NCBI RefSeq assembly: GCF_001443605.1
Contig: NZ_CP013118.1
Coordinates: 3,529,501-3,593,500 of the forward strand
Direction of reading: 5' to 3'
DNA: 64,000 nucleotides
Origin: Salinivirga cyanobacteriivorans
GTDB taxonomy: Bacteria; Bacteroidota; Bacteroidia; Bacteroidales; Salinivirgaceae
Part shown: piece by piece, positions 49,936 to 59,519 of the stretch
Numbering within the stretch: the stretch's first letter is position 1
How the letters are laid out: every line of letters begins with the position of its first letter
Notes under the pieces: generated by a model
Seen by the model: the letters and a program-made list of their open reading frames with translations, nothing else
What the model was told of the DNA's origin: nothing
The model's database searches: none
Translations under genes and position numbers: made by a program

Positions 49936-50292
49936 TTATTTGGTCTGGAAATTAAAATTGATCTTAATTCTGTAAGTCTTTCCATAAAGATCGGGGTTTT
50001 CAACCGAAATCAGTTCCATTTGCTTTTTGATATAATCTGCAAATGCTTTCTTTCCCTGCACGTCTTCAACTTCGATCCAGCCCTCTTCGTTTACTTTAAA
50101 AGTAGTCCAAACGTGAGCTGATTCGCTGCGGCTGGTTAATTCTGCGGGAAACTGCACAAGTTGCTCAATGGCTGTGTAAAGTTCTTGATCGGAGTTTGCA
50201 GTGGCACTGATTGCCGGAAAGGCAAAACTTGATGTTGTGTTCATTAACAGTGCGATGAAAATTGCGGCGGTGATTGTTTTTAAATTTTTCAT
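49936..50292 (-). CDS. Small exported protein, twin copy A
   Basis: 118 residues. A signal peptide at about 1-24 ends SSFAF. The mature part (about 85 residues) has HVWTTFKVNEEGWIEVEDVQG and a closing KTYRIKINFNF, a strand order reminiscent of the TonB C-terminal fold, though this is only a resemblance. It is nearly identical to the 51513-51869 protein, differing at a few residues in the signal peptide and the C-terminus. The similarity includes the DNA just upstream of the ATG. The two copies face the same way and bracket the iron transporter gene. Confidence 0.75.
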   Translation of the reverse strand: MKNLKTITAAIFIALLMNTTSSFAFPAISATANSDQELYTAIEQLVQFPAELTSRSESAHVWTTFKVNEEGWIEVEDVQGKKAFADYIKKQMELISVENPDLYGKTYRIKINFNFQTK

Positions 50293-50577
50293 GGGTTTAA
50301 GTTTTAAGGGTTAATTTTGGGTTTGTGTTTATTTGGTATTTGCCAAATATGTGCCAAAAGAAATAAAGTGTTAGTAATGAATGGTTTATGTGTTGAGAGG
50401 TGTGTCTTTTGTGTGCGATTTCGGACACTGATGTTGTTTTATGATACAGTTGGTAGAGTTTTGTAATATGCAGAAATTAAGTGATTTGTATGGTTGGTCA
50501 TTTTTTGAAGGGGATCACTGAATATTTTGCTAGTTTGCTGGTTTGAATTAAGTTTGTTTTCTGAAAATATTTGCGCA

Positions 50578-51512: not shown

Positions 51513-51869
51513 TTATTTTTCCTGGAAATCGAATTTAATTTTAATACGATAGGTCTTTCCATAAAGATCGGGGTTTTCAACCGAAATCAGTTCCATTTGC
51601 TTTTTGATATAATCTGCAAATGCTTTCTTTCCCTGCACGTCTTCAACTTCGATCCAGCCCTCTTCATTTACTTTAAAAGTAGTATAAACGTGAGCTGATT
51701 CGCTGCGGCTGGTTAATTCTGCGGGAAACTGCACAAGTTGCTCAATGGCTGTGTAAAGTTCCTGATCGGAGTTTGCAGTGGCACTGATTGCCGGAAAGGC
51801 AAAACTTGATGTTGTGTTCATTAACAGTGCGATGAAAATTGCGGCGGTTAGTGTTTTTGAATTTTTCAT
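51513..51869 (-). CDS. Small exported protein, twin copy B
   Basis: 118 residues, the same length as copy A (49936-50292) and almost the same sequence. The visible differences are in the signal peptide (residues 4 and 7), W/Y at residue 62, and the last ten residues. The 5' flanks are also alike (GGGTTTAA..TTTTAAGGGTTAATTTT), so the duplication took in the promoter side. The near identity at DNA level suggests a recent event or gene conversion. Function unknown; probably periplasmic. Confidence 0.75.
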   Translation of the reverse strand: MKNSKTLTAAIFIALLMNTTSSFAFPAISATANSDQELYTAIEQLVQFPAELTSRSESAHVYTTFKVNEEGWIEVEDVQGKKAFADYIKKQMELISVENPDLYGKTYRIKIKFDFQEK

Positions 51870-52108
51870 GGGTTTAAATTTTAAGGGTTAATTTTTCGGG
51901 TTAATTTTTTTGGGTTTCTGTATCTATGACGCACTATTTTCTGATCTGTTACAGGGTTGGGTGAAAAATAATTTTCGAATTGTTTTAAATTGTTGTAATT
52001 GAGACTATTACGTGTGGGTGAAAATATAAATTAATCCGAAATTAATTAAATACCATCTATAAATTGCTTTGTATATTGAACATTTGTTCATAATTTTACA
52101 AAAAAAAT

Positions 52109-53211: not shown

Positions 53212-54147
53212 ATGAAAATTAGTATAATAGGTGCCGGAAATGTAGGGGCCACATGTGCCAACGATATAATTAACCTGAATCTTGCCGATGAACTTGTACT
53301 CCTTGACGTAAAAGAGGGTGTGACAGAGGGTAAGGCGTTGGATTTATGGCAAACTTCTTCTATACGTCAGTTTGAAACTTATGTGTATGGTGTAACAGAC
53401 GACTATGAAGCCACAAAAGATTCCGATGTAGTAGTAATTACCGCCGGACTGCCACGTAAACCCGGAATGTCGCGCGATGACCTTATCGAAATAAATGCAG
53501 GTATTGTGCAGCATGCCACAAGGGAGATCATAAAGTATTCTCCTGATGCCAAAATTGTAATTGTTTCTAACCCACTGGATGTGATGACATACGCGTCATT
53601 CATGGCTACCAATGGTAAAAACCCGAATGAAGTATTTGGTATGGCCGGCATACTTGATGCAGCGCGCTACAAAGCTTTCATAGCTGAGGAATTAAATGTG
53701 AGCCCCATTAGTGTTCATGCTATTTTAATGGGCGGGCACGGCGATACAATGGTACCACTACCACGTTATACTACCATTTCATCGGTGCCTGTTACCGAAT
53801 TGCTTTCGAAAGAAAAACTCGATACCATTATCGAACGCACAAAATACGGTGGCGGCGAACTGGTAAAATTAATGGGTACTTCTGCCTGGTATGCCCCGGG
53901 GGCTGCTGCAGCACAAATGGTGTCGGCAATTGTGAAAAATTCACGTCGACTTTTCCCTGTTAGTGCATACCTGCAGGGCGAATATGGATTGAATGATTTG
54001 TATATGGGAGTACCCGTAATTCTTGGCCGGAATGGTATTCAGCAAATTATAGAGCTTAAACTGAATGACGAGGAGTTGGAATTGGTGCATAAATCAGCTG
54101 AATCAGTAAAAAGTGTACTTGAAGTACTCAGACAAAAAGTAAAATAA
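53212..54147 (+). CDS. mdh: Malate dehydrogenase (copy 1)
   Basis: 311 residues, LDH-like type. The NAD-binding GAGNVGAT is at 7-14 and the acidic residue after the second strand (LLDVKEG) selects NAD. The substrate arginines are in GLPRKPGMSRDDL (about 79-91), and the catalytic His in GGHGDTMVPLPRY (about 174). It converts malate and oxaloacetate. A second, clearly related copy follows 205 bases on, after a terminator at 54173-54200. Confidence 0.95.
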   Translation: MKISIIGAGNVGATCANDIINLNLADELVLLDVKEGVTEGKALDLWQTSSIRQFETYVYGVTDDYEATKDSDVVVITAGLPRKPGMSRDDLIEINAGIVQHATREIIKYSPDAKIVIVSNPLDVMTYASFMATNGKNPNEVFGMAGILDAARYKAFIAEELNVSPISVHAILMGGHGDTMVPLPRYTTISSVPVTELLSKEKLDTIIERTKYGGGELVKLMGTSAWYAPGAAAAQMVSAIVKNSRRLFPVSAYLQGEYGLNDLYMGVPVILGRNGIQQIIELKLNDEELELVHKSAESVKSVLEVLRQKVK

Positions 54148-54200: not shown

Positions 54201-54352
54201 GTTTTAATATAAATATATGGTTATATGATAATATTTGAATATTATATTGGTTTTTATTAAATTGGACCTTACAACAGTTCGGTTAAAATTAAGGCAACCT
54301 TTTAGTTGAGTTGTTGTTTAATGAACATAACGTAAACCAAAAATATTTAATT

Positions 54353-55294
54353 ATGAGAAAAGTTTCAGTTATCGGTGCCGGAAATGTTGGTGCAACATGT
54401 GCCAATGTTGTGGCCAGGAAAAACATTGTGAATAATGTGGTGCTGCTCGACATTAAAGAAGGTGTTGCAGAAGGTAAAGCCCTTGATATGTGGCAAACCT
54501 CATCTGTTGACTTTTTCCATACGCGCGTGCATGGCGTCACCAATGATTACGAAGCCACAAAAGACTCAGAAGTGGTAGTTATTACCAGCGGATTACCCCG
54601 CAAACCGGGAATGTCGCGCGACGACTTGATTAGCACCAATGCTAAAATTGTAAAAGAGGTAACTGAAAACGTAGTTAAATACTCGCCTAATGCCATTATT
54701 ATTGTAGTGTCAAACCCACTTGATGTAATGGCTTACACGGCTTTCAAAACGGCGGGTCTACCAAAAGAGCGCGTAATTGGTATGGCCGGTATACTTGACT
54801 CGAGCCGTTACAAAGCTTTTTTGGCCGATGAATTGAGTATTTCGCCAAACTGTATTCAGGGGCTGCTGCTAGGAGGGCATGGCGATACCATGGTGCCGCT
54901 GCCCAGATATACCTCCGTGGCCGGGATTCCTGTACAACAATTAATTGATAAGGATCGGCTCGATGCCATTATTGAGCGCACCCGCAAAGGTGGCGGTGAG
55001 CTGGTAAAACTGATGGGAACCTCAGCATGGTATGCCCCGGGAGCTGCAGCAGCACAAATGGTAGAAGCAGTAATCGACGATCAGCAATGTTTCTATCCCG
55101 TTGCAGCCTATCTCGATGGCGAATACGGGCTAAACGATCTTTATCTGGGAGTGCCTATTATTTTAGGACGTCAGGGCATTGAGAAAATTATCCAGATCGA
55201 CCTGAACAAAGAAGAACGCGATATGCTGGACAAATCTGCCGAATCAGTGAAAGAGACCCTGGAAACCCTGAAAGGTATGAATATTCTGGATTAA
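54353..55294 (+). CDS. mdh: Malate dehydrogenase (copy 2)
   Basis: 313 residues from the ATG at 54353. The frame opens at 54311, but the shorter form aligns end to end with copy 1. The same motifs are present: GAGNVGAT, LLDIKEG, GLPRKPGMSRDDL and GGHGDTMVPLPRY. By eye the two proteins share well over half of their residues, with conserved blocks through the active site. Both appear catalytically competent, so a difference in cofactor, regulation or partner is possible. Own terminator at 55316-55347. Confidence 0.95.
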   Translation: MRKVSVIGAGNVGATCANVVARKNIVNNVVLLDIKEGVAEGKALDMWQTSSVDFFHTRVHGVTNDYEATKDSEVVVITSGLPRKPGMSRDDLISTNAKIVKEVTENVVKYSPNAIIIVVSNPLDVMAYTAFKTAGLPKERVIGMAGILDSSRYKAFLADELSISPNCIQGLLLGGHGDTMVPLPRYTSVAGIPVQQLIDKDRLDAIIERTRKGGGELVKLMGTSAWYAPGAAAAQMVEAVIDDQQCFYPVAAYLDGEYGLNDLYLGVPIILGRQGIEKIIQIDLNKEERDMLDKSAESVKETLETLKGMNILD

Positions 55295-55347: not shown

Positions 55348-55546
55348 GATGTGAAGATGTTTTTTTTCAGCGTATACTTTTAATATTACAGGGTAATTTA
55401 AGATCCTGAGACAGCAAACATTATGAATGCTTGTTCTTGGAAATCGCCATATCGAATACTTTTAATTTTAGTATCAAACAAAACATGCCTGTATTTGTCT
55501 TTAATCTAAAGGCTTTAAAGCCTGCCATATTTAATAATTCTAAATA

Positions 55547-56059
55547 ATGAGAATTGTTCTAATTGCCATATTATTTGTAATGACAACGAATTGTAGTTCT
55601 CAGGGACAGGATAAAAAAGAGACACAAAAGATGAATAATCCGTATTATTCGCGTACAGATACTACCCATTTAAACGTATCCGATAAGGAATGGAAAAAGA
55701 TTTTGCCCGAAGATGTTTATCGTGTGGCACGAAAAGAGGGCACAGAACGACCCTTTACAGGAAAATATTGGGACAGTGAAGCTAAAGGAACTTATTACTG
55801 CGCTGTTTGCGGAAACAAGTTGTTTCGTTCCACTGCTAAGTTTGCCAGTTCATGCGGATGGCCAAGCTTTTTTGAGCCGGTCAGGCCCAACAGTGTAAAT
55901 TATAAACCCGACCATTCATTGGGTATGAACCGCATAGAGGTAGAATGTGCCCGCTGCGATTCGCACCTGGGACACATTTTTGACGATGGCCCGGAGCCTA
56001 CCGGAAAGCGCTTCTGCATGAACTCCATTGTGCTCGATTTTGAACCCGATGAGAAGTAA
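55547..56059 (+). CDS. msrB: Peptide-methionine (R)-S-oxide reductase, exported
   Basis: 170 residues. A lipobox-like TTNC near residue 16 suggests a lipoprotein. The MsrB domain (about 40-165) has zinc Cys pairs in CAVCGNK and CARCDSH, the CGWPSFF segment, and the catalytic Cys in RFCMNS (near 157). It repairs oxidised methionine in proteins, here probably in the periplasm. It is the last conventional gene before the repeat array. Confidence 0.93.
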   Translation: MRIVLIAILFVMTTNCSSQGQDKKETQKMNNPYYSRTDTTHLNVSDKEWKKILPEDVYRVARKEGTERPFTGKYWDSEAKGTYYCAVCGNKLFRSTAKFASSCGWPSFFEPVRPNSVNYKPDHSLGMNRIEVECARCDSHLGHIFDDGPEPTGKRFCMNSIVLDFEPDEK

Positions 56060-56563
56060 AAACATGATCGGAGGGTAATTACATTATCCAAAACTTTTCA
56101 AAATTCATTTTGCTTTATGTTCATTAATGTGGATCACTTCATAAAGTTGTGGATTTGTATTGAATTGTCTATGTCGAATATATTACGAGCCATTTGATGC
56201 TACAGCAAAAAGACATGGTTTGAATTGTTAGAATGTGAAAAACATTTCAGAAGTAACCTGAACAAACTCCCGTAAATAACAATAGATCGTAGATTAAACG
56301 GATGCATACTGATAACGTTTGGGGTTATGATTGGAATTCCTCGGGTTTCAGTACCAGGTTTTTTTGTAAAAAGGCACAATTATGTTTCTCCTTATCCCTG
56401 AAAATCAGCTTATCTAAGATATCAGAGATGTTATTTTATTCAAATAATTACCGAACACTATGCTACGACGAGAGCAAACATATGATATTTGGATTAATTA
56501 ATCCGTATAATCCGCGTTCTATTCTCGTGTTTTGTGCAATGGGGCACCCAATTTTGGCATAAC

Positions 56564-56597
56564 CCTACTTTTTTTGCTACAGGTCAAAAAAAGTAGG
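56564..56597. repeat. Hairpin 1 of segment B (first copy)
   Basis: CCTACTTTTTTTG and CAAAAAAAGTAGG form a perfect 13-bp stem around the 8-base loop CTACAGGT. Copies 2 and 3 keep 12 of these pairs. The T7/A7 tracts would make a terminator on either strand. Confidence 0.75.
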
Positions 56598-56641
56598 CAA
56601 AAAAAACCCGCCGCTTACAGAAAAGTGCTAAAAATCTATTC

Positions 56642-56716
56642 GTTATGGCTAAAGTTTACGAACTCACTTCGATTAAAAAATCGAAGCTCAAACAGCGCAA
56701 ACTTTGACGCCATAAC
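56642..56716. repeat. Long composite hairpin of segment B (first copy)
   Basis: GTTATGGC pairs with GCCATAAC and AAAGTTT with AAACTTT. After an internal loop, CTTCGATT pairs with AATCGAAG around AAAA. The same structure is at 57343-57417 and 58043-58117. A small hairpin CGCAT/ATGCG follows at 56733-56750. Confidence 0.75.
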
Positions 56717-58811
56717 AAACAGATTTTTTTAACGCATTTTTCTTCATGCGGCTAGCTGGCAACCATTTACCTGCTGCTCAACAACAAGCCCCAAAGCGAG
56801 TTGGCCGTTATCACACATGCCTGGATCCATATAACACAATTTAATTATAATAAACGAAACGGAACGGGTCACCCAAAACAGAAAAAATAAGAGTCAAGTT
56901 GCTAATAATCAATTTTTATTTTACCAAGTATCGTTTTCATGTACAAAACAGGATAAAAACTTATCAGCTAAGCATTTTTCTTTAAATATCTTCGATAAAC
57001 GGATGCATACTGATAACGTTTGGGGTTATGATTGGAAATCCTCGGATTTCAGTACCAGGTTTTTTTGTAAAAAGCCACAATTATGCTTTTCCTTATCTGT
57101 GAAAATCAGCTTATCTAAGATATCAGAGATGTTATTTTATTCAAATAATTACCGAACACTATGCTACAACGAGAGCAAACATATGATATTTGGATTAATT
57201 AATCCGTATAATCCGCGTTCTATTCTCGTGGTTTGTGCAATGGGGCACCCAATTGTGGCATAACCCTACTTTTTTTGCTACAGGTCAAAAAAAGTAGACA
57301 AAAAAACCCCGCCGCTTACAGAAAAGTGCTAAAAATCCATTCGTTATGGCTAAAGTTTACGAACTCACTTCGATTAAAAAATCGAAGCTCAAACAACGCA
57401 AACTTTGACGCCATAACAAACAGATTTTTTTAACGCATTTTTCTTCATGCGGCTAGCTGGCAACCATTTACCTGCTGCTCAACAACAAGCCCCAAAGCGA
57501 GTTGGCCGTTATCACACATGCCTGGATCCATATAACACAATTTAATTATAATAAACGAAACGGAACGGGTCACCCAAAACAGAAAAATTAAGAGTCAAGT
57601 TGCTAATAATCAATTTTTATTTACCAAGTATCGTTTTCATGTACAAAACAGGATAAAAACTTATCAGCTACGCATTTTTCTTTAAATATCTTCGATAAAC
57701 GGATGCATACTGATAACGTTTGGGGTTATGATTGGAATTCCTCGGGTTTCAGTACCAGGTTTTTTTGTAAAAAGCCACAATTATGTTTCTCCTTATCCCT
57801 GAAAATCAGCTTATCTAAGATATCAGAGATGTTATTTTATTCAAATAATTACCGAACACTATGCTACGACGAGAGCAAACATATGATATTTGGATTAATT
57901 AATCCGTATAATCCGCGTTCTATTCTCGTGGTTTGTGCAATGGGGCACCCAATTGTGGCATAACCCTACTTTTTTTGCTACAGGTCAAAAAAAGTAGACA
58001 AAAAAACCCCGCCGCTTACAGAAAAGTGCTAAAAATCCATTCGTTATGGCTAAAGTTTACGAACTCACTTCGATTAAAAAATCGAAGCTCAAACAACGCA
58101 AACTTTGACGCCATAACAAACAGATTTTTTTAACGCATTTTTCTTCATGCGGCTAGCTGGCAACCATTTACCTGCTGCTCAACAACAAGCCCCAAAGCGA
58201 GTTGGCCGTTATCACACATGCCTGGATCCATATAACACAATTTAATTATAATAAACGAAACGGAACGGGTCACCCAAAACAGAAAAATTAAGAGTCAAGT
58301 TGCTAATAATCAATTTTTATTTACCAAGTATCGTTTTCATGTACAAAACAGGATAAAAACTTATCAGCTACGCATTTTTCTTTAAATATCTTCGATAAAC
58401 GGATGCATACTGATAACGTTTGGGGTTATGATTGGAATTCCTCGGGTTTCAGTACCAGGTTTTTTTGTAAAAAGCCACAATTATGTTTCTCCTTATCCCT
58501 GAAAATCAGCTTATCTAAGATATCAGAGATGTTATTTTATTCAAATAATTACCGAACACTATGCTACGACGAGAGCAAACATATGATATTTGGATTAATT
58601 AATCCGTATAATCCGCGTTCTATTCTCTAAAAAAAATCCAACCGTTATTAAAAAAGCCCACAACTTTTTCAACTGATCCATTAATGTACTATGATTTCTT
58701 TTGATTATGGTCTATTATTATTTGCTCTAAATCACTTTTTTTAATAATTTTGATGTTTTTTAGTAGATTAATATAGCTACTGATTGATTTTAAAAACAAA
58801 ATAGCTGCAAA

Positions 58812-59357
58812 ATGAATAAGATTACGTTAAATTATATTGGTATTTTGTTTTTGGTGGTGATTGCCAGTTGCTTAATACATGAGTTCGGCCACTATGTCAC
58901 AGGCGTATTTTTAGGAAACGATATGGGTATGAATCTCAACAGGGCCTATCCGGTTGAGGGCAGCTATGCAGCATCATGGCATTACCCGGTTGTGGTAAGT
59001 GCGGGGCCTGTAATTACCATACTTCAGGGTATTGTTGCACTTGTTTTAATGTATGTTTTTGGACCTGCAAAATGGCTTTATGGCTTTTTAATAGAACCGG
59101 TAACGTTAAGGATTTGGCCTTATTTGGTTAGTCCTTTAATGTCGCAGGACGAGGCTATTGTGAGCGATCACCTGGGGATGTCGCCCTGGATTTTACCAAT
59201 TTTTGTGTGGCTCTTGCTTGGCGCATTAGCCTGGTGGGGTAGTAAAAAAATGAAGGTCTCTTTGAAGTTTGCTGTTTTCACAATCCTCCTGGTTTTAGTG
59301 ATCTTTCAAGTTGTATTGCGTTCAAATAATTTGGTGGTCTCCTTAATCCATAATTAG
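58812..59357 (+). CDS. Small M50-like membrane metalloprotease
   Basis: 181 residues, with membrane helices at about 8-28, 60-90, 95-115, 130-148 and 152-175. The HEFGH at about 23-27 fits the HExxH zinc motif at the end of the first helix, as in M50/site-2-type proteases. The usual second motif (NxxPxxxxDG) is not seen, so activity is uncertain. It lies right after the repeat array and has no clear partner. Confidence 0.65.
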   Translation: MNKITLNYIGILFLVVIASCLIHEFGHYVTGVFLGNDMGMNLNRAYPVEGSYAASWHYPVVVSAGPVITILQGIVALVLMYVFGPAKWLYGFLIEPVTLRIWPYLVSPLMSQDEAIVSDHLGMSPWILPIFVWLLLGALAWWGSKKMKVSLKFAVFTILLVLVIFQVVLRSNNLVVSLIHN

Positions 59358-59519
59358 ATTTTTTATATCTGATGATGCCATTACGCCTCATTGAGCCAGT
59401 GGTTTAAGTGGTTTGTGTGTGCTGCTATTAGCTTATTTACCGCATTATGCCGGAATCGGGTATGGCATAAACCGGAAAATGCGTTATATTGAAATGCCAA
59501 TACAGCAGAAATTAAAATT

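Follow-up and report, generated by a model that had tools for sequence, protein, structure and literature searches.

A dispersed non-coding element with long target duplications as the probable source of a 700-bp tandem array in Salinivirga cyanobacteriivorans

A 64,000-nucleotide stretch of the Salinivirga cyanobacteriivorans genome (the whole of which is here called the window) contains a tandem array of the form A-B-A-B-A-B-A with a period of about 700 bp, and the locus raises the question of how such an array comes into being and by what steps it grows. The array, first described in an earlier note made from the sequence letters alone, was recovered at the positions given there: four copies of a 232-bp A segment start at 56295, 56996, 57696 and 58396 (spacing 701, 700 and 700), separated by three B segments of nearly the same sequence. 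Measured against the third A copy, the four 232-bp copies show 1, 7, 0 and 0 mismatches, in order. Repeats of 232 and 468 bp are indeed present, but they do not coincide with the functional borders, which enclose an element of 426-427 bp and a target of 274 bp; the 468-bp segment originally called B includes 43 bp of A that are missing from the first A copy. Tandem Repeats Finder did not list the window array, the longest period in its output being 500. The features as delimited here are collected in Table 1.

Table 1. Array units and the surrounding older repeat, with positions in the window and segment assignments as interpreted in this study
Feature	Position	Strand	Remarks
Older repeat element (family II), insertion target	56131..58679		inverted ends GGATCA..TGATCC
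A1, first target-duplication copy	56295..56525	+	231 bp; without the first 43 bp of A
B1, MITE	56526..56952	+	427 bp; ends CGTGTTTTGTGCA..TGTACAAAACAGG
A2, target duplication	56953..57226	+	274 bp
B2, MITE	57227..57652	+	426 bp; long hairpins as single-stranded DNA, z = -3.1
A3, target duplication	57653..57926	+	274 bp
B3, MITE	57927..58352	+	identical to B2 (426 bp)
A4, target duplication	58353..58626	+	identical to A3 (274 bp)

That the array carries no gene was borne out as far as the searches reach: ORFs of 86 codons (scanned in two copies) and 66 codons gave no Pfam match at E 0.01, and no Rfam match was obtained at E 1 over 55500-59500. On its two sides lie msrB, with a SelR domain, and a gene whose weak match to an M50-like membrane protein stayed below the cut-off; the gene downstream of the array had no match in 5 relatives. 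The array lies inside an older repeat element (family II), with arms at 56130-56152 and 58658-58680 and ATTAATGT on both sides (56123-56130 and 58680-58687). A second copy of this composite, bounded by the same ends and including the insertion, was found at locus L009 (G000, about 2189.8-2191.7 kb).

From its structure, B is best read as a non-coding transposable element (MITE) of 426-427 bp with inverted ends. When a single unit was used to search the whole genome, at least 56 places were returned (40 of the 76 candidates scored), comprising 33 parts of B without A, 5 whole units and 18 parts of A; the two segments, whose separate occurrence had been proposed as a check, therefore both occur separately in the genome. 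The B cores reside in elements ending CCTGTTTTGTGCA and TGCACAAAACAGG, and this pair forms the terminal inverted repeats, changed by one or two bases in the window copies. A search of the genome for the exact 13-bp end gave 37 matches, and one for its reversed form, used as a control, gave 0; for the 12-mer, with one mismatch allowed, the figures were 127 and 22. For further comparison, 21 loci with both ends located were taken from among the matches listed, L013 counting as two (L013a and L013b). The elements at these loci are short, multi-copy and devoid of a transposase gene, spanning 365-1006 bp with one exception, a 2.7-kb copy in L084 holding a transposase-like ORF (weak NF033559 match, E 6e-4) that is probably a nested IS. 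In being short, non-coding, multi-copy and hairpin-forming, with inverted ends, B resembles other bacterial MITEs.

The identity of A became apparent from the flanks of these elements. Seventeen of the 21 MITE loci are flanked by long direct repeats, which amount to 16 different A sequences, as two of these loci represent one insertion. At 15 loci the repeats abut both element ends cleanly, at lengths of about 40, 44, 46, 60, 66, 71, 77, 97, 101, 105, 110, 162, 173, 274 and 283 bp; at L012 and L019 they abut within 4 and 2 nt, and these unmatched bases are counted in the lengths of A. The repeats are displaced by truncation or a neighbouring insertion at two further loci, namely L009, which is the same insertion as the window MITE, and L020, where they are present and an IS1634 copy has inserted next to the MITE. 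No simple flanking repeat was found at the remaining four (L028, L017, L013a and L013b). Both complete elements found in the congener G002 also carry flanking repeats, one of 65 bp abutting the element and one of 46 bp that is offset by 6 nt on one side. Repeats that abut the inverted ends of a dispersed element and differ in sequence from one independent locus to the next are what target duplication on insertion would leave. That B is mobile and bounded by terminal inverted repeats, and that A is the long target duplication it made, had escaped the earlier note; if A is made by B, the initial A-B-A needs no chance repeat. Usual MITEs make short target duplications, as opposed to the range of about 40-283 bp for the MITE described here.

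At L013 (3984-11346; G000 2779283-2786645), a segment with 1144- and 407-aa ORFs lies between two directly oriented MITEs, and the outer flanks have 166 bp (100%) of the end of an upstream gene in common; the pair resembles a composite transposon flanked by a single long target duplication.

Forms of A without the element were also found. At G000 85480-85751, a contiguous stretch without B matches unit positions 660-700 and 1-232 at 91% and 90% identity and so covers 272 of the 274 bp of A. At L021, A contains the final 66 codons of a gene that we take to be M16-peptidase-like; this gene end is present in two copies here and in a single copy in each of G001 and G002 (69% identity), with no element end in either fetched counterpart locus. 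The uninterrupted A and the congener gene carrying A once can be read directly from the sequences and are consistent with sites as they would stand before insertion.

The relations among the units indicate how the array grew. B2 and B3 show 0 differences, as do A3 and A4; mismatches occur at 8 columns between B1 and B2 and at 8 between A2 and A3/A4. Perfect period-700 identity extends over 759 bp (57169-57927 vs 57869-58627). These copy relations are those given in the earlier note, and its view that a B unit between direct A repeats was amplified recently and by exchange is supported, the perfect 700-bp duplication of the last unit pointing to very recent amplification. Gene conversion, which had been suggested alongside, is not required, as one duplication of B2-A3 yields B2 = B3 and A3 = A4 with A2 still divergent; this is the pattern that a single unequal exchange would leave, and unequal recombination thus suffices for the last two units. 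In all, six arrays with five different periods were found (window, L009, L011, L024, L084 and L087), corresponding to 6 of the 17 MITE loci with repeats, or 5 of 16 if the window and L009 are counted once. In one and the same insertion, B is present three times in the window and twice at L009, showing that copy number changes. At L087, B2 = B3 and A2 = A3; at L084 all four A copies are identical; and at L024 (46-bp A) the three inner copies are identical and the outermost has diverged (12/46 differences). Within the fetched loci, no arrays of autonomous IS were seen.

Several other origins for the array were weighed. An assembly artefact is very improbable: the array is known from assembled sequence alone, but that assembly is a single 4.81 Mb contig (completeness 99.98), and six arrays with five different periods, whose units differ in sequence, were recovered. 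Slightly less remote, though still quite improbable, is the repeated, independent insertion of B at neighbouring places. Nested and adjacent elements do occur (L020, L026), yet all internal A copies of the window array have the same ends, B2-A3 equals B3-A4 over 700 bp, and no differing A boundaries were seen in the window. It is scarcely credible that A and B together form an ordinary satellite with no transposition involved, for although the tandem form and near identity of the units are those of a satellite, other copies of B in the genome are accompanied by other A sequences, and the repeats lie directly against the ends of the element. We return to insertion of B with duplication of A, followed by exchange, and to the transposase that could be responsible.

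The likely mobilizer of B is the IS1634 family, whose transposase would act on the MITE ends. Seven full-length copies and one partial copy above the cut-off are present in the same genome, each full-length IS being about 1.62 kb with ends CCTGTTTTCCGGAT; family membership is given by NF033559 (344.8 bits against a cut-off of 100). Duplications were found at all six scorable copies (91, 209, 142-143, 88, 241 and 111 bp; L123, in a CRISPR-like array, and L127, interrupted, were left out), so that the AT-rich 5-6 bp listed for the family is replaced here by 88-241 bp. As a control, an unrelated resident IS, whose transposase is about 408 aa long, showed long repeats at 0 of 16 copies and 9-10 bp of identity at 12 of 16. 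The excluded L123 copy (G000, about 1.120-1.124 Mb) lies within a CRISPR-like array whose period is about 66 nt.

A passage of a 2008 review (PMC2266710) gives 5-6 bp for the IS1634 family as a whole and names IS1549 and IS1634 themselves as two atypical exceptions, which makes the short duplication a usual rather than a defining trait. One IS1634 member in Geobacillus made a 6-bp repeat, according to a passage in PMC8024623, and this counts against a general long-duplication habit.

An IS1634-family transposase above the cut-off was found in 43 of 198 genomes of the order, the present one included. Among related IS elsewhere (71 of 80 named loci examined, from one scan, mostly in Bacteroidota metagenome assemblies), 28 have flanking repeats of 19-573 bp, 42 have none and 1 lies at a contig edge. 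Thirty-two of these last 43 loci were re-examined as repeat-free relatives, with repeats sought to about 1.1 kb and several flanks shorter than 350 bp (once Ns): both ends were located in 30, duplications of 5 and 10 bp were seen in two, and none in 28. Of 33 relative loci measured to their ends (the 28 with repeats, L241 and 4 more), 29 were resolved, 24 of them at 100% identity; L198, L237, L241 and L258 were not. The habit of long duplication extends to the resident IS and to many related IS1634-family elements.

The link between the MITE and this family was sought in the terminal sequences. The MITE end CCTGTTTTGTGCA is found at both ends of L257 (Balneolia metagenome assembly), an autonomous IS1634-family member with which B therefore has a terminal sequence in common, and at one end of L241, L243 and L248; close variants occur at L195, L211 and L260. 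Among these seven relatives, a long duplication is present at L195 only (221 bp), L241 has 10 bp, and none was found at L211, L243, L248, L257 and L260, the right flanks of L248 and L257 being short (419 bp at L257). L196, with a MITE-type end on one side, has a duplication of about 452 bp. No transposase with exact MITE ends was found in the genome itself; the resident IS and the MITE have in common only CCTGTTTT and an inner motif, GGGTGTCCCGT..TATTT, whose offset in the resident IS matches that in the MITE at L023 (79-106 / 79-105). This match (24/28 identical, E 0.017) comes from one of 18 MITE sequences compared.

The joints were compared at 52 elements (19 MITE, 6 resident IS and 27 other IS). 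On the right, CAGG is followed by A in 47 of 52; on the left, CCTG is preceded by T in 45 of 52. One position further out, 43 have a purine on the right and 50 a pyrimidine on the left. When read on each strand, both ends follow the same rule, CAGG^AR. The 48 duplication lengths used range from 16 to 572 bp, a 36-fold spread (L206, with doubtful ends, and L173, the same locus as L209, were left out beforehand; L196 and L250 were measured by hand), and show no helical phasing at 10.5 bp (R = 0.04, n = 48). At other periods, p was about 0.025 (10.0) and about 0.007 (11.0), uncorrected with five periods tried; the lengths seem enriched near multiples of 11, and phasing is not claimed.

Taken together, we consider it quite probable that B is an IS1634-related MITE that makes a long, variable target duplication, and that A-B-A grew by unequal recombination between A copies; the explanation is held slightly less firmly because of the weak record of relatives with MITE-like ends. 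Insertion of the non-autonomous B would produce the duplication (274 bp here, about 40-283 bp at other loci). A single joint rule combined with a widely varying, unphased distance suggests that the two element ends attack 5'-AR sites on opposite strands, each independently, and the gap between the joined ends would then be filled by host repair to give the duplication. The long flanking A copies would serve as substrates for homologous unequal exchange, taking A-B-A to A-B-A-B-A-B-A, with the perfect duplication of one 700-bp B-A unit as the putative latest step. We consider it unlikely, though worth serious attention, that replication or repair makes the duplication instead, with one end joined, a variable stretch copied by template switching of the polymerase, and the second end joined afterwards; an A-B tandem could arise in the same event. 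The widely varying, unphased lengths and the four identical A copies of L084 would suit such a process, but the preference of both joints for CAGG^AR is expected if the transposase picks both sites, and the array units differ by age. For independent joining of both ends by the transposase, we tentatively extend the proposal: the Bacteroidota IS1634 branch and its MITEs may integrate with uncoupled ends at opposite-strand 5'-AR sites, free of helical phase, such that the element carries its own recombination substrate, sparing genes hit at their ends and making tandem arrays.

The effect on neighbouring genes was scored at 14 MITE loci, leaving out the window and L009, where A lies in another repeat. 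No ORF of at least 100 codons (mechanical calls) spans A at any of them, and at 5 of 14 the end of an ORF falls within A and is preserved. Among the six resident IS, 2 ORFs are broken, and an ORF end is kept at 3 loci. Ten MITE loci have a called ORF no more than 300 bp away on each side, and seven of them (L011, L012, L018, L019, L023, L027 and L082) lie between converging ORFs.

Other repeats were noted in passing. Intergenic tandem arrays with periods of about 330-425 bp occur at L025 (3719-5718), L032 (4283-6359), L033, L035 and L036; they belong to a different repeat family, marked by AGAACRCGGATTA..TAATCCGCGTTCT motifs, and CTGTTTTGTGCA ends, with one mismatch allowed, are absent from them, L025 having one site outside its array. 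The window repeat 49936-50323 / 51513-51902 was considered as another long duplication and rejected, being a pair of paralogous 118-aa ORFs (49936-50292 and 51513-51869, 94% DNA identity); these flank a 311-aa ORF, presumably a rubrerythrin/VIT1-type membrane protein. The adjacent genes at 53212-54147 and 54311-55294, which we take to be malate dehydrogenase-like, have 66% DNA identity and are presumably an old tandem duplication.

Long variable duplications are already known for IS1549 (Mycobacterium smegmatis) and IS1634 (Mycoplasma mycoides), with target repeats of 8-514 bp, and no mechanistic model had yet been proposed for them in the relevant passage of the 2008 review (PMC2266710). These two resemble the present case in their long variable repeats and in belonging to the same DDE transposase family as the resident IS, but they are autonomous IS, as opposed to a gene-less element, in another phylum, that forms tandem arrays. 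BrickBuilt, the minisatellite MITE of Porphyromonas gingivalis described in PMC4596501, is likewise a Bacteroidota element linked with tandem repeats; its 23-nt repeats sit inside the element, whereas here the repeat unit is the element plus the duplicated target. In the openly licensed literature searched, no account was found of a MITE that makes such duplications, of arrays that arise from them or of the trait being common in Bacteroidota. What is new here is the MITE with long duplications, its arrays, the joint motif and the spread in Bacteroidota. The 48 lengths, the joint motif and a control IS from the same genome make models of duplication testable. Long duplications can keep a gene intact when the element lands at the gene end, and they illustrate a route by which a transposon may create new tandem repeats.
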